The notes under the pieces: model-generated
What the model was told of the DNA's origin: nothing
The model's database searches: none
The model's input: the letters and a program-made list of their open reading frames with translations, nothing else
In this document: piece by piece, positions 14,733 to 46,679 of the stretch
Layout of the letters: each line of letters starts with the position of its first letter
Numbering within the stretch: the first letter of the stretch is position 1
Translations under genes and position numbers: made by a program
NCBI GenBank assembly: GCA_014804005.1
Contig: JAAVAP010000013.1
Location: 200,302-264,301, forward strand
Length of the DNA stretch: 64,000 bases
Direction of reading: 5' to 3'
Source of the DNA: Treponema sp.
GTDB lineage: Bacteria > Spirochaetota > Spirochaetia > Treponematales > Treponemataceae

Positions 14733-14762
14733 TTGACACTTCGCGGCATTTCATGCTAGTAT
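14733..14762 (+). promoter_or_regulatory. Promoter TTGACA-18-TAGTAT of cassette A
   Basis: TTGACA is at 14733-14738 and TAGTAT at 14757-14762. The ATG of the leader ORF comes six bases later. It drives the leader, attenuator and DUF6261-like gene in cassette A. Confidence 0.7.
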
Positions 14763-14768
14763 ATTTTT

Positions 14769-14846
14769 ATGATGCATATATCCCCACAACTTGAATACAA
14801 AGAACTGCTCGCTAGAAAAAGTATGGGGGGGGGTGTAACAGCCTAG
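14769..14846 (+). CDS. Cassette A leader peptide with in-frame G9 tract
   Basis: The predicted leaderless 25-codon ORF starts MMHISPQLEYKELLARKS and ends MGGGVTA-stop. Nine G residues at 14825-14833 encode the glycines. Inserting one G would move the frame into an open reading frame that continues without a stop through the hairpin and repeats to 15346 (about 192 codons), overlapping the DUF6261-like start. Removing one G gives an immediate TAA. The peptide ending GGG-V-T is shared with the cassette B leader (GGG-I-T). No homologue is known to me. Confidence 0.6.
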   Translation: MMHISPQLEYKELLARKSMGGGVTA

Positions 14847-14875
14847 GTTTTTTCGGAAAAGCACAGTTCGCATAT

Positions 14876-14925
14876 AAAAAGACGCGCAATGAGGACAAAA
14901 TGTCTAATTGCGCGTCTTTTTTATT
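14876..14925 (+). terminator. Intrinsic terminator / attenuator in the cassette A leader
   Basis: A 15-bp perfect stem (14876-14890 pairing with 14907-14921), with an inner GACA/TGTC hairpin, runs straight into a T-rich tail. It lies 29 bases after the stop of the leader peptide and 370 bases before the DUF6261-like gene, so it would end most transcripts unless read through. Confidence 0.8.
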
Positions 14926-14934
14926 TCGCTTTGC

Positions 14935-15184
14935 TTCTCACATTGTGTCGCTTGGCGCATTTTCAAGCAAAATTTATTCTCACATTACTCCACTTGGCGT
15001 GTTTTCAGGCAAAATTTGTTCTCATGTAGTCTCGTTTGGGTTGTTTTCGACCAAATTCATTCTCATATTGTTTCGCATGGCGTGTTTCTGGGCAGAATTT
15101 GTGCTCGCATGCTCCGCATGGAGCGTTTCCATGCAAAATTTCTTCTCACATTGCGTCGCGGGGCGCGTTTTGTCGCAGGGCTTC
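14935..15184 (+). repeat. Tandem array of six 41-42 bp units, cassette A
   Basis: Units begin with TTCTCA or a variant at 14935, 14977, 15019, 15060, 15102 and 15143. They share TTCTCACATT, TGGCG and CAAAATTT. Within several units short arms pair: CTTG/CAAG in unit 1, TTTGG/CCAAA in unit 3, ATGGA/TCCAT in unit 5. The pairing is kept although the bases differ. Confidence 0.75.
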
Positions 15185-15260
15185 GCCCTGCTTCCGAGTT
15201 TTCGTTTGCTCGCGAGGCTCGCATTTTTGTCGCTTCGCGGCAAAAAGCACGAAAACTCGC
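15176..15260 (+). repeat. CGAGTTT multi-hairpin element, copy 1
   Basis: The hairpin CAGGGC-TTC-GCCCTG (15176-15190) is followed by outer arms CGAGTTTTCG/CGAAAACTCG (15195-15259). These enclose a CTCGCGAG palindrome and TTTTTGTCGC-TTC-GCGGCAAAAA. The whole resembles a branched, REP-like structure. The same arrangement recurs at 45339-45437 and 46482-46547, with smaller relatives at 31920 and 54188. Confidence 0.75.
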
Positions 15261-15296
15261 TCAAATTTAGCAAAAAACATAAATCAGGAGGGTTTT

Positions 15297-16013
15297 ATGG
15301 CAAAAGTTGCAAAGGTAAACGCAAGGGTTTTCGTGACGGAGCTTGACGCGCTCTCGGACGCGCTGGAGCGCGAGTATGCGGCGGCTTGCGCGGGCGGCGA
15401 GACGGCGGTGGCGAAGGACGCTGTGCTTAAGGCGCAGTTCGGGCAGCTTAAGGACTTGAGCGCGCGGAACACCACGGCAATCAAGCAGTCGCCTGTGACG
15501 TCCACTCTGGACGAGGCGGATTCGGCGCGGGATTCCGTGACGCGCGACCTCTTCACGCTCGCTGGCGGCTACACGGCAAGCCCTTTCGCGGAGGTAAAGG
15601 CCGCGGCTCAGGTTGTGTGCGCGGTGCTCGAAAAATACGGGCGCGGCATGACTGGCAAGGGCTACGCGGAGCAGACCGCGCTCACCGAGTCGCTTCTGGA
15701 GGATTTGGCGGCATCTTCGGTTTCGGAGGGCGTGAAGGCTCTTTCGGGAGTGGCGGAACTCTTGGCACAGTTGCGCTCGGCGCAGGACGGATTCGCCTCC
15801 GCGCACGACGGCTACATCAAGGCGAAGCTCGGAAAGGGCGAGTCGGCAACGTCGCTCAAAAAGCCGATTGTCTCGCTGATTAACGACGGCATCGTGCCGT
15901 ACCTGAACATCGTGGCGGCGATGGACGGCTACGCGGACTTCGCGGACGCGGTGGCGGAGAACATCAAGAAGATGAACAACACCGTGGCGCGCCGCCTGGC
16001 GACGGAAAAGTGA
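15297..16013 (+). CDS. DUF6261-like protein, cassette A
   Basis: The 238-residue, Ala-rich, entirely helical product has no signal peptide. It aligns along its whole length with the cassette B protein: LSARNTTAIK, LDEADSARDSV, TESLLEDL, LRSAQDGF, KGESATSLKK and IVPYLNIV have direct counterparts. The third copy (cassette C) has the sequence pattern I associate with DUF6261, a family of unknown function frequent in Bacteroidetes. The start at 15297 has AGGAGGG upstream. Base composition is clearly GC-richer than the gene that follows. The function is unknown; four-helix-bundle-like pairing of long helices is likely. Confidence 0.75.
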   Translation: MAKVAKVNARVFVTELDALSDALEREYAAACAGGETAVAKDAVLKAQFGQLKDLSARNTTAIKQSPVTSTLDEADSARDSVTRDLFTLAGGYTASPFAEVKAAAQVVCAVLEKYGRGMTGKGYAEQTALTESLLEDLAASSVSEGVKALSGVAELLAQLRSAQDGFASAHDGYIKAKLGKGESATSLKKPIVSLINDGIVPYLNIVAAMDGYADFADAVAENIKKMNNTVARRLATEK

Positions 16014-16056: not shown

Positions 16057-16887
16057 ATGAAGAGAAAACGGATTGAAGTTGTGTTTATGGCGGCGCTTTT
16101 CGCGGCGGCGTTGGCGTTTGTGGCATGCAAGAATATTGAAGATGGCGGCGAAATCCAGCAGCCTCCTGCGCCCGAGCAGGGTGCGAGTGGCGGAAGCCAA
16201 GGCGAAGGACAGCCCAGCGGCGGCGATAACACAGGCAATGAAGGCGAGAATCCCGATGAAGGCGGAGATGAAGGTGATGAACAAAATCCTCCGCAACCAT
16301 CTGGTAAAACTGTTGTTGAGCTGATGAAAGAAATCATCGGAGAAAACAAGTACGACGCGATTTCGGAGGAAGTGGCGGCCGGAAACATGACATTGACGGA
16401 AGAAAAGATAAAAGCGGTGGGCGACATTTTCCCCGCCCTTGAAAAGGACGCGGAAAGCGGCAAGGAAGCAAAAGACGTGGAGAACGCTGAAATAATTCGG
16501 CAAAACAAGGAAGCATTCGTCGCGCAGGCGCGGGGCGAAATGGAAGACGTGTTCAAGACTATATATCCTGAAGGGTATGAAGAGTATCCTTTTCTCTTTG
16601 ACGAAGATGACTTTGAAAGGAAATATGTCGTCACATACAAAAAGAATTTTACATTCGAAGGCGAGTTCAACCTCGACGAAATTGACATAATAAAAGCGGA
16701 TGGCGCGCAAGGAGATTTCTCAAATGCAACATTAACGGGTAATAATATAACTATTGATAATCTTAATAGTATAAGAGGTGAGTATTTACCAACAATATCA
16801 TCTACAAATATATCATCAAGTTCATCTCCAAAAGCTATCTATAATTTATATAAAGCATATTCAAGTAATTTAAATAAACTTACTTGA
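16057..16887 (+). pseudogene. Lipoprotein gene of cassette A, N-terminal part; truncated by a stop
   Basis: The product starts MKRKRIEVVFMAALFAAALA with the lipobox FVAC, then a Pro/Gly/Glu-rich linker (EIQQPPAPEQGASGG...). AAGGAG lies upstream of the ATG at 16057. The first ~630 bases have the composition of the neighbours; from about 16690 the sequence becomes strongly AT-rich with AAA, TTA, ATA and AAT codons. The frame ends at TGA 16885-16887, but similar AT-rich coding sequence continues in another frame to 17797, so this is probably a broken surface lipoprotein. It lies 43 bases after the DUF6261-like stop. The translated 276 residues could still be made. Confidence 0.65.
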
Positions 16888-16912
16888 AAGGGTGATTTAT
16901 ATAAGAAAACAA

Positions 16913-17797
16913 TAGTATGGTAAAGAAATAAGTGGTAATAACAGTGATTACACTTTATTCACAGATGATAATAAAGCTAAATTATCAACAAATACTTCAA
17001 TCACATCACTTTCCGCTGATGCATTGGCTCAAATGACAAATCAATTAACTATTTATGATATTCGTAATATGATAATATCTGGTAATGCAAAAACAAATAC
17101 AGTAAATTGGCAACTTACAAATATAATATTTGAAGGTGATATGAGTAATCTTAAAAATGATTTTACAAATCCAGATAATGAGTCAGCTTTACGTTTGTAT
17201 GGTATTGTATATTTTAAGAATAAACCTTATAATAATAGCAGACAAGATGGACAAAGTGTTGTAGGAATGTTAAAATTAGATAAATTAGAAGGGGTATCTA
17301 GTAACAATTTTAAAGTTGGTTTTGGTTCTACTTCTTATAGTGTTTTGGATGTTAGTGGGATTGACGCAAGTGTTTTAAGTAACTATAATCCAACTAATAA
17401 AGAAATAATTTCAAGAGGAGAAAGCACTCATGCGATTTATTTCAGTAATCTTAAAAATAAGACAGAAGATATCAATAAACTTTGTTATAAGTTTGTATCT
17501 AAAAGTTCACCAGGCATCGTAAATGTTTACTTAGGAGATAATAGAGATAAGGGAAATCATTATGATCGTTATCCTGACGATACAGCAGCTTCAAGAATTC
17601 CTAGAACATTAAAAGAATTTGAATATTTTGGAAATTATGACAAATTTGAAAAGTCTGCATACTCATCTTATTCATCTACCGATTTGGAAGAGTTACCACA
17701 AAAAGAGAAAAAACAGCTTGAAGGTGATAAGGACACAAAACAGATTGCTCAAAACAACAGAAAGTGCTTTTCCTGCGTAGCGAAAAGTTTTGTTTAG
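16913..17797 (+). pseudogene. AT-rich remainder of the cassette A surface protein, out of frame
   Basis: The frame runs from just after TAG 16910-16912 (YGKEISGNNSDYTLFTDD...) to 17797 with no good start or ribosome-binding site. It reads as the continuation of the upstream lipoprotein: polar, Asn/Ser/Lys-rich, with beta-type segments such as WQLTNIIFEGDMSNLKNDF. At least two lesions separate the parts (a frameshift near 16882 and a nonsense codon). The very low GC compared with flanking DNA suggests the C-terminal part came from an AT-rich donor. The last ~20 codons return to host-like composition. Confidence 0.6.
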
Positions 17798-23699: not shown

Positions 23700-23735
23700 A
23701 TTATTTTTCAGGCGAATTGATTTCGAAAATTTTCT

Positions 23736-23983
23736 CCAACGCCAAGGGAAGCAATTTCAAAACTGAAAAAGTCGTCCGAATGCGAAAGAAGGGCATTACA
23801 AAACTGAAATTTGCCGCCCTGACGCGAAAGAAAGGCGTTTCAAAACCGAAATCGCTTCCCCAACGCCAAGGGAAGCCGTTGCAAAACTGAAAAAGTCGTC
23901 CGAATGCAAAAGGAAGGCGTTACAAAACTGGAATTTGCCGCCCTGACGCGAAAGAAAGGCGTTTCAAAACTGAATTTGCTGTC
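23736..23983 (+). repeat. Array of 41-42 bp hairpin repeats between the LCP gene and rsfS
   Basis: Units begin AAAACTG or AAAACCG at 23759, 23800, 23842, 23883, 23924 and 23966. Every three units form a 124-base higher-order repeat (23736 and 23860). Each unit can form a hairpin around AAAGAAAG or AAGGGAA, with arms that change together: AATGC/GCATT, CAACG/CGTTG, GACGC/GCGTT. The array lies in a convergent intergenic region and runs into the last codons of rsfS. Confidence 0.8.
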
Positions 23984-39723: not shown

Positions 39724-40440
39724 TTATTCTGCGTCCGTCAAGTCATTGTTTTCCGCGCCTTTTTTCGAGCGGCGGTCGGCCGCGTTGTTGACGCGCTTTA
39801 TTTCCGTTTCGACTTGTGACGCGAACTTCGCGTAAGGCTCGGCGAGTCTCACCGCGCCCAAATACGGCACAAGCCTTTCGTTTACGAACGCTACAAGCGT
39901 TTTCTTTATCTCGGTGGCGTTTTCGCCTTTTTCCGATTTCGCGACGGTGTACGCGTCGTTTGCGGCGTTGAATTCGTCCTGCGCGTGGCGAAGCCGCTCC
40001 ACAAGGGTTTCCACGCCTTCAAGGATTTTCATTTCAGATTTGAACGCGCCCAAGTCTTCCAAGAGGCTTTCGATGAGCGAAGATTCGGATGCGTAGCTTT
40101 CGTTTACGATTTTCTTTCCGTATTTCGAGAACGCCGCATCGAGCCGCTTCGCTGCTTCTTTTTTTTCGGGAACGGGAATTACGGCGTAGCCTTGAATCAG
40201 CGTTCCCAAATTGCGCACCGCCTCGTCGCGCGCGCCGTCGCACTCATCCAAACGTGAATTCGCCACGTCCTTTTTGATTGCGGTGGTGAGACGCGCGCTC
40301 AAGGACTCAAGTTCCTTGAACGCGCCCGAAAGGAACGAGTCGTTTTCAAGACCCGCCGCTTTGTAAAGGCGCAGCAACGCGTCGCTTGCGGAATCCGCTT
40401 CCGTTGCGCGGATTCTCGCGTAAAGTTTTGTCATCGCCAT
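39724..40440 (-). CDS. DUF6261-like protein, cassette B
   Basis: The 238-residue helical protein has the same length as the cassette A copy and aligns with it over the full length (LSARLTTAIKKD, LDECDGARDEAVRNL, ESLLEDLG, LRHAQDEFNAAND, KGENATEIKKTL, LVPYLGAV). No signal or membrane segment. AGGAGG precedes the ATG. The surface LRR gene follows directly. Function unknown; the repeated pairing of this family with exported proteins suggests a role in their production, regulation or secretion. Confidence 0.75.
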   Translation of the reverse strand: MAMTKLYARIRATEADSASDALLRLYKAAGLENDSFLSGAFKELESLSARLTTAIKKDVANSRLDECDGARDEAVRNLGTLIQGYAVIPVPEKKEAAKRLDAAFSKYGKKIVNESYASESSLIESLLEDLGAFKSEMKILEGVETLVERLRHAQDEFNAANDAYTVAKSEKGENATEIKKTLVAFVNERLVPYLGAVRLAEPYAKFASQVETEIKRVNNAADRRSKKGAENNDLTDAE

Positions 40441-40724: not shown

Positions 40725-40772
40725 ATAAAAAAAACGCGCGCTCTGAGGCTTTGTGCTTTCAGAGTGCGCGTT
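40725..40772 (-). terminator. Intrinsic terminator / attenuator in the cassette B leader
   Basis: On the minus strand a 14-base stem (40772-40759 with 40746-40733, one mismatch) runs into eight T residues. It lies 32 bases after the leader-peptide stop, almost the same spacing as in cassette A, and 290 bases before the DUF6261-like ATG. Confidence 0.8.
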
Positions 40773-40804
40773 CGTTAATTGCGTTGTTTGGAAATTAAAA
40801 AATG

Positions 40805-40930
40805 CTAGTCGGTTATACCCCCCCCCGTAGTCGTTTTACAAGGGGTGCATGGCATCCATAAAGCCGCATGCCGCTCGTGGAAAGAAACGGAATGTTTCGA
40901 AGAAGTTCTTGCGGCGAATTCGGCGTTCAT
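40805..40930 (-). CDS. Cassette B leader peptide with in-frame G9 tract
   Basis: The 41-codon ORF starts MNAEFAARTSSK; AAGGA lies seven bases before the ATG. It ends TTTGGGITD-stop. The glycines come from nine G residues on the minus strand (plus-strand C at 40818-40826). One extra G opens a frame that continues without a stop through the terminator and repeats to 40431, ten bases inside the DUF6261-like gene. One fewer G gives an immediate TAA. Confidence 0.6.
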   Translation of the reverse strand: MNAEFAARTSSKHSVSFHERHAALWMPCTPCKTTTGGGITD

Positions 40931-46171: not shown

Positions 46172-46679
46172 ACAAACCTCCTAATGATTTCAGAAATGAC
46201 TTCAAGTTGCACTTGAAGTGTCCAAACGGTTTCGGAAGCGGCTTCAAGTGGCACTTGAAGCGTCCAAACGGTTTCGGAAATGACTTCAAGTTGCACTTGA
46301 TGTGTCCAAACAGTTTCAGAAGTGAGTTCAAGTGGCACTTGAAGTGTCCAAACGGTTTCGGAAGTGGCTTCAACTCGCAGTTGAAGTGTCCAAACGGTTT
46401 CAGAAGTGAGTTCAAGTCGCACTTGAAGTGTCCAAATAGTTTCAGAAGTGAGTTCAAGTTGCGGTTTGAGGCATGTTTGTGTCGCAGGACAAAGCCCTGC
46501 TTACCGAGTTTTGTACGCAAGCTCTTGGCTTGCTGCCAAAACTCGCCATGATTAGCATTTTGCGTGCCAAAGTCGTGATTTCTACATGCAGAAAGTGTCG
46601 CGCTGCGTAGAAATGCTATATCATTGTATAGGGGGGGGGTAGTCGTTATCGTGTTTTTAAGTTCCGCACATTTCCGCAT
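46065..46679 (-). CDS. Cassette C leader ORF, long (open) form with C9 tract and 14-residue repeats
   Basis: The 204-codon frame starts six bases after a TATAAT box (predicted leaderless) with MRKCAELKNTITTTPPLYND. Nine C residues (plus-strand G at 46631-46639) lie in codons 14-17. The frame passes through seven exact 42-base repeats, read as 14-residue units such as HLKPLPKPFGHFKC, and ends 107 bases inside the DUF6261 gene. One more or one fewer C would end the peptide within eight codons of the tract (TTPPPIQ-stop or TTPPYTMI-stop). Whether the product is functional or only its translation matters is unknown. Confidence 0.5.
   Translation of the reverse strand: MRKCAELKNTITTTPPLYNDIAFLRSATLSACRNHDFGTQNANHGEFWQQAKSLRTKLGKQGFVLRHKHASNRNLNSLLKLFGHFKCDLNSLLKPFGHFNCELKPLPKPFGHFKCHLNSLLKLFGHIKCNLKSFPKPFGRFKCHLKPLPKPFGHFKCNLKSFLKSLGGLYEGNPVDFLGEHEQCGAFHVRVQHGGQGGEGRGRR
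46201..46474 (-). repeat. Seven 42-bp palindromic tandem repeats, cassette C
   Basis: Units start with TTCAAG at 46201, 46243, 46285, 46327, 46369, 46411 and 46453, exactly 42 bases apart. Each has a palindrome such as CTTCAAGTG-G-CACTTGAAG plus a spacer TGTCCAAACGGTTTCGGAAG. Arms change together: ACTTCAAGT/ACTTGAAGT in unit 1, GCTTCAAGT/ACTTGAAGC in unit 2, CTTCAACT/AGTTGAAG in unit 5. The array ends 30 bases before the DUF6261 ATG. Confidence 0.9.
46482..46547 (+). repeat. CGAGTTT multi-hairpin element, copy 3
   Basis: GCAGGAC-AAA-GCCCTGC (46484-46500) is followed by CGAGTTTTG (46505-46513) and CAAAACTCG (46537-46545), enclosing GCAAGC-TCTTG-GCTTGC. It lies between the C9 tract and the 42-bp array of cassette C. 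Confidence 0.75.

Follow-up and report, generated by a model that had tools for sequence, protein, structure and literature searches.

Slippage-prone leader reading frames upstream of DUF6261 operons suggest a phase-variable attenuator in Treponema

Introduction

Cassette B, a minus-strand locus of a Treponema sp. genome, places a short leader ORF containing a run of nine Gs in front of an intrinsic terminator and a DUF6261 gene, and past the run another reading frame stays open through the terminator as far as that gene. The question is whether this arrangement is accidental, belongs to an ordinary coding gene, or acts as a genetic switch. In classical trp-type attenuation, whether a terminator forms depends on how a leader is translated. 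From comparisons of sequence, we consider it probable (roughly 0.77) that the cassette is a phase-variable attenuator, in which slippage within the leader would decide whether ribosomes block the terminator ahead of DUF6261; it would be like trp-type attenuation in that leader translation sets the terminator, but no amino acid would be sensed and the choice would be genetic and heritable. Throughout, the window is the whole stretch of 64,000 nt that was analysed, and cassettes A, B and C are the three DUF6261 cassettes within it.

Results

Anatomy of the cassettes in the window

The anatomy of cassette B is confirmed as observed (Table 1). The 41-codon leader, its TTTGGGITD-stop ending and the T8-tailed terminator 32 nt beyond the stop all lie where the earlier note had placed them. 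Its alternative frame also proved open through the terminator and the repeats, ending ten bases past the DUF6261 ATG, and the gene that it had called DUF6261-like is indeed a DUF6261 gene, since all three such genes in the window score above the Pfam cut-off for PF19775. Past the tract, the three frames of cassette B meet stops at +2, +10 and +384, the long frame measuring 387 nt, and at nine Gs the leader enters the +10 frame, so that the assembled state is OFF. The hairpin was missed by our promoter-terminator scan, which had a loop limit of 8 nt, and was recovered by folding, with a dG of -21.9 to -23.8 kcal/mol and a z score of -5.7 against shuffles. The promoter-like site agrees with the consensus at 11 of 12 positions; about one such site per region also arises in shuffled sequences, and position therefore counts more than score. 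Taken alone, cassette B is not convincing, because an open frame of such length is unremarkable (P 0.26 by dinucleotide shuffle), and the significance of the arrangement thus rests on the whole family.

Table 1 Coordinates of features of cassettes A, B and C and of a separate repeat array in the window
Feature	Position	Strand	Details
Cassette A promoter-like site (row L160)	14733-14762	plus	TTGACA 14733-14738, TAGTAT 14757-14762, 6 nt before leader ATG
Cassette A leader ORF	14769-14846	plus	G9 at 14825-14833
Cassette A open frame	14834-15346	plus	ends 50 nt past DUF6261 ATG
Cassette A terminator hairpin	14879-14916	plus	dG -23.1; T run from 14917
Cassette A 42-bp array	14935-15171	plus	within open frame
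Cassette A DUF6261 gene	15297-16013	plus	E 6.2e-19
Cassette A lipoprotein-like gene	16057-16887	plus	downstream of DUF6261
41-bp array	23732-23979		between convergent genes
Cassette B promoter-like site TTGACA-18-TACAAT	41005-40976	minus	-35 41005-41000, -10 40981-40976
Cassette B leader ORF	40930-40805	minus	41 codons, start ATG 40930, ends TTTGGGITD-stop
Cassette B G9 tract (putative slippage switch)	40826-40818	minus	inside leader ORF
Cassette B long open frame, post-tract	40817-40431	minus	crosses terminator and spacer; TGA 40433-40431
Cassette B leader stop TAG	40807-40805	minus	
Cassette B intrinsic terminator	40772-40727	minus	hairpin 40772-40735, then T8 40734-40727
Cassette B DUF6261 gene	40440-39724	minus	PF19775, E 2.3e-20; ATG at 40440
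Cassette B lipoprotein-like gene, BspA-type LRRs	39712-37430	minus	11-nt gap after DUF6261; PF13306, E 1.9e-127; lipobox-like motif
Cassette C leader	46679-46065	minus	C9 at 46631-46639; 204 codons, past DUF6261 ATG
Cassette C 42-bp array	46188-46459	minus	within the 204-codon frame
Cassette C DUF6261 gene	46171-45440	minus	E 8.8e-45
Cassette C BspA-type LRR protein	45275-44076	minus	downstream of DUF6261; LRR_5, E 6.6e-112

Runs of eight or more G or C occur three times in the window, each time upstream of a DUF6261 gene (six overlapping 8-mer matches against 0.32 expected). Cassette A has the same anatomy as B and is likewise OFF by its tract length; folding puts 32 nt between leader stop and hairpin in both, so that the similar spacing reported earlier stands, with 32 nt in each in place of 29 versus 32. 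In cassette C the leader is already in the open frame and the state is ON; neither our terminator criterion (given below) nor folding of this cassette (z +0.7) revealed an intrinsic terminator. As a side observation, AT-rich open frames extend beyond the end of the lipoprotein-like gene of cassette A (16887) within 16057-17797, possibly representing a broken or mosaic gene.

Recurrence of the cassettes

The source genome (2.53 Mb, 31 contigs) contains 76 runs of at least eight G, counted over either strand, and each of 27 genomes of the same genus contains 1 to 60, none of them more. It has 23 DUF6261 matches. The family was present in 6 of the 77 genomes searched, the source genome included, and in none of 14 control genomes, and a scan of named genomes returned 58 DUF6261 loci in Treponema sp. 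MAGs and Bacteroidota. The locus was examined for 30 of the 34 matches from the genome search and for 54 of the 58 named loci (L192, L199, L206 and L211 were excluded, the gene start being absent). A G or C run of at least eight lay within 1500 nt upstream of DUF6261 at 16 of the 30 loci, namely 12 in the source genome and four in genome G040, and among the 54 named loci at 21 of 39 in Treponema versus 0 of 15 in Bacteroidota. After two named loci were dropped as duplicates of G040 loci (L189 and L194 repeat L131 and L137), 35 cassettes from eight Treponema genomes or MAGs were analysed, 12 of them from the source genome; many are related, and 35 cassettes are therefore not 35 independent cases. 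The tract-gated leader logic that had been read from this window thus recurs in related genomes. Eighteen named Treponema loci had no tract, 11 of which offered less than 800 nt of upstream sequence, and neither tract nor repeat was seen at several Treponema DUF6261 genes whose upstream sequence is complete.

Some further loci were noticed in passing. Apparently decayed switches, with a recognisable leader and a tract that is G6, C5 or absent, are found at L148 and L149 (C1:141935, C26:100208), L187 and L165. At L106 (C1:120030), in a stretch with Ns, a leader of the same type precedes a chemoreceptor-like gene that is in frame with the open frame, and a G10 leader with a hairpin and no open frame precedes a membrane-protein-like gene at L113/L086 (C20:33965), the identity of both genes being judged by eye.

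Two frames closed and one open

In 31 of the 35 cassettes one frame extends from the tract as far as the DUF6261 ATG, that is, it falls short of the ATG by at most 20 nt or passes it, against expectations of 1.8 by dinucleotide shuffle and 1.09 under a null that preserves the internal similarity of the repeat arrays. The long frame stops short in the other four, by 36 nt (L179), 59 nt (L145), 87 nt (L164) and 185 nt (L200). Per 100 codons there are 0.24 stops in the open frame, and the other forward frames have 2.15; since the open frame was picked as the longest, the shuffle nulls and not this density are the fair test. In 33 of 35 cassettes the first off-frame stop comes no more than 15 nt after the tract. 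The earlier note would have taken disruption of the leader frame in close relatives as refuting its reading; in that form the criterion has no force, as leaders differ freely across loci and species and the pattern of two closed frames and one open frame nevertheless recurs. An ATGA stop-start overlap, present in 14 of 35 cassettes, was set aside as a sign of coupling, because tract-less loci and Bacteroidota show it too; it is largely trivial, as DUF6261 genes begin with ATGA and the +1 frame gives the +4 overlap automatically.

Counting as a terminator any hairpin with a dG of -15 kcal/mol or lower that precedes a T run and lies within 260 nt of the tract, we found one in 16 of 35 cassettes, compared with 0 in the in-gene control and 0.1 in mononucleotide shuffles. 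All 16 have both off-frame stops 27-64 nt ahead of the hairpin and an open frame that traverses it, against 2.4 expected with shuffled spacers. Nine G-tract cassettes from three genomes place the T run at +83 or +84 despite differing hairpin sequences, and when these nine terminators were aligned, hairpins of different families aligned poorly. The conserved feature is the placement of the off-frame stops relative to the hairpin. The remaining 19 cassettes, C included, have no terminator by this criterion, and for that reason they are treated as alike and not as members of the Pil1 type discussed below.

Besides the 35, four loci carry 5- or 7-nt repeats in place of the tract, namely a pentamer in 11 copies (L134), a heptamer in 7 copies at a contig edge (L135), a different heptamer in 6 copies (L172), and the latter heptamer again in 4 copies at a contig edge (L190). 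All four have hairpins of -29 to -37 kcal/mol after the repeat. Within 30 nt two of the frames have met a stop, and the remaining one runs 81, 275, 799 or 649 nt, reaching the gene in L172 and L190 only; no frame does so in L134 and L135. The best reason to think that the repeat serves to shift the frame is that units of 1, 5 and 7 nt, none of them a multiple of three, are found at one and the same position.

Leader starts and assembled states

The best -10 box, often accompanied by an exact TTGACA, ends 6-7 nt before the start codon in 26 of the 34 cassettes with an identifiable start, a count that is somewhat inflated because the choice of start maximises the promoter score. This suggests that these 26 leaders are made as leaderless transcripts; cassette B is an exception. 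A Shine-Dalgarno-like site, as claimed earlier for B, is there, with AAGGA some 8 nt upstream of its leader ATG, but the feature is not general among the cassettes.

These upstream sites also bear on another explanation, in which the tract would form part of a promoter spacer and its length would tune transcription, as at the tpr genes and tp0126 of T. pallidum, for which poly-G promoters have been described (PMC7864442). A TATAAC or TATAAA sequence stands after many of the G tracts, cassette B has TTGTAA 18 nt before TATAAC (by eye), and other tracts of the source genome do sit between TTGACA and TATAAT. However, a -35-like hexamer at a suitable distance is missing from most leaders, as judged by eye, and the -10-like sequence is absent from the C-tract and 5-/7-nt cassettes, a weak TATAAC being found in some G-type cassettes only. 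Transcription from such a promoter would run straight into the terminator, and good promoter-like sites already lie upstream of the leader start. We regard a promoter spacer as quite improbable for these cassettes.

Elsewhere in the source genome, most of the 76 G runs lie outside DUF6261 leaders (for example L036, L055, L044, L054, L052, L082 and L098). Some stand between TTGACA and TATAAT-like hexamers, and several lie just past the point where a lipoprotein-like signal peptide begins, which suggests that many surface genes are phase-variable, on a genome-wide classification of tracts that is crude and serves as background only.

Among the 34 cassettes with a start (one has none), 31 are assembled OFF and three ON, the latter being cassette C (L150), L184 and L193; the calls for L184 and for L186 are ambiguous, and an N adjoins the tract of L193. 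An ON share of 3/34 is skewed compared with the one third or so expected of a freely drifting tract. Direct signs of length variation are few. Related leaders within one MAG carry G8 and G9 (L182, L197, L200). Outside the DUF6261 leaders, one tract is assembled as G8 in L037 (C1:168495) and as G9 in L095 (C26:74097) with identical 50-nt flanks; contigs C1 and C26 look partly redundant, and the difference may be strain variation or an assembly error. The predominance of OFF in the assembled consensus would also be compatible with a default short leader, from which transcriptional slippage on the RNA or ribosomal frameshifting yields the long frame at a constant low level and no heritable switching. 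Tract lengths of 8-11, the use of both G and C, a required shift of +1 in some cassettes and -1 in others, and the 5- and 7-nt units all fit slippage at replication better, and we find an RNA-level origin very hard to credit.

Repeat arrays and leader peptides

The spacer between tract and gene usually contains a tandem array, with a period of 42 nt in most cassettes and 41 nt in four. A 42-nt period equals 14 codons, and the arrays are free of stops in one frame. This agrees with the idea that tract and array belong to a phase-variable gene for a repeat protein, which would affect DUF6261 through polarity or translational coupling and would make the terminator incidental; slippage of a G tract inside a real gene, with transcriptional polarity, is indeed described for the Bifidobacterium breve pilus (PMC9187656). 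The details speak against it. Mismatches between repeats show no preference for the third codon position (25, 23 and 24 percent across the three positions), so that the array peptide does not appear constrained; in the 41-nt arrays each repeat is in a different reading frame, and three of the four are still open to the ATG; strong terminators lie inside the supposed coding frame; and the 41-bp array between convergent genes in the window has neither leader nor DUF6261 and contains stops in all six frames. Arrays therefore look like genomic elements that are open only in cassettes, and they may be an independent repeat element. Altogether, we judge a repeat-protein gene to be unlikely.

Comparison of the leaders by eye found no conserved peptide among the cassettes, and the joined frame encodes no conserved protein. 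The conserved GGG-[VI]-T ending put forward in the earlier note is limited to one family of related leaders, in which GGG is the G tract itself and V/I-T-x-stop is a family trait; a loose DNA signature of this family has 11 matches in the source genome and six scattered in 76 relatives. Other Treponema leaders have C8-C11 tracts or 5-/7-nt repeats and unrelated peptides, so that the comparison of endings across genomes, which had been proposed as a check, showed neither a shared N-terminus nor a shared ending. The recurrence of the ending in related leaders of the source genome is what would be expected if the short peptide itself were functional, for example in stalling or sensing; given its tract-encoded glycines and its absence from other cassettes and species, this was rejected as scarcely credible.

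Genes under the candidate switch

Downstream genes were located for 29 cassettes, and a lipobox-like motif, sought with a simple pattern, was present in 17 of them; at least one of these 17, the LRR protein of cassette C, looks more like a protein with an ordinary signal peptide. Among the 22 tested against Pfam, 13 contained BspA-type LRRs and one bacterial Ig-like domains only; the others matched MBOAT (1), DUF4062 (2), FRG (1) or no family (4). The AlphaFold2 model of DUF6261 is all-helical (mean pLDDT 82.9, pTM 0.51) and had no match in the PDB at E <= 0.001; the sole match of the sequence profile was 5cof_A, at E 0.046.

Discussion

The phase-variable attenuator that we propose would operate as follows. 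Transcription would start at a promoter ahead of a short leader ORF with a slippage-prone repeat, either 8-11 Gs or Cs or units of 5 or 7 nt. Past the repeat two frames would stop at once, at least 27 nt before the terminator where one is present, and the third would continue, mostly to the DUF6261 start. At an OFF length the ribosome on the leader would leave early, the terminator would end transcription, and DUF6261 and the downstream gene would stay silent; in the 19 cassettes in which none was detected, Rho could end transcription instead by acting on the stretch left untranslated, and Rho-dependent polarity is what we infer there. A slip of one unit at replication would put ribosomes into the long frame, the hairpin would be masked, and transcription would continue into the operon. 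Because the long frame is usually kept open to the first gene, one switch may serve both transcription and translation. The sequences establish the layout, its repeated occurrence, the frame pattern and the distance from stop to hairpin; slippage in living populations, termination in OFF cells, read-through in ON cells and any coupling to DUF6261 translation are predictions of this reading.

The closest precedent is found in Streptococcus gallolyticus. GCAGA repeats in a leader peptide shift the frame there, and a stem-loop terminator is destabilised when the leader is longer (Danne et al. 2014, PMC3894217). This Pil1 attenuator mechanism is experimentally established, and isolates whose leader stops at least 28 nt before the terminator show heterogeneous, mostly low expression (PMC3894217). 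As in pil1 and pil3, short repeats lie inside the leader ORF, a change of frame would extend the leader as far as a terminator or beyond it, and surface structures would be controlled; the spacing of 28 nt or more in S. gallolyticus matches the 27-64 nt of the Treponema cassettes. Unlike pil1 and pil3, the Treponema cassettes use mostly G or C homopolymers with a minority of 5-/7-nt units, are present in many copies per genome, have a long frame that continues for hundreds of nt and usually to the next gene, and often have leaders that look leaderless. Phylum and cargo also differ, and the mechanism shown in S. gallolyticus is one that we infer in Treponema.

Other systems share single elements. 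The Bifidobacterium breve pilus switch, also from a gut bacterium, is likewise based on slippage of a G tract in an upstream ORF, and its OFF state loses downstream transcription by polarity, but there the tract links the two parts of a single pilin gene and the authors see no specific terminator (PMC9187656), whereas the joined Treponema frame holds no such conserved protein. The tpr genes and tp0126 of T. pallidum share the genus name, a poly-G of similar length and surface proteins, but the tract lies in the promoter there and in a translated leader here (PMC7864442). In cwpV of Clostridioides difficile, phase variation also involves an intrinsic terminator in the leader, which is formed by DNA inversion, with no leader translation described (PMC5386303). 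Thus, the Pil1 logic is known, and the different repeats, the large copy number, the long open frames and the apparently leaderless starts are new. In the open-access literature searched, we found no such system in Treponema.

More broadly, we lean towards the view that such attenuators form a modular family dispersed through the genomes of gut treponemes, with about a dozen in one genome, interchangeable repeats (G, C, pentamer or heptamer) and peptides free to drift, and that they would gate operons, often for a surface lipoprotein, by translation alone and reshuffle the surface make-up combinatorially. If this is true, a mechanism that we found described only for two pilus loci of S. gallolyticus, and tested in a close relative, would be a genome-scale strategy in gut spirochaetes, and the ON or OFF state of many surface-protein operons would be readable from tract length in sequencing reads. 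The cassettes would also give a first context for DUF6261, and, sharing one layout with different repeats, hairpins and peptides, they would serve as natural constructs for measuring the distance that a ribosome has to cover before a terminator fails.
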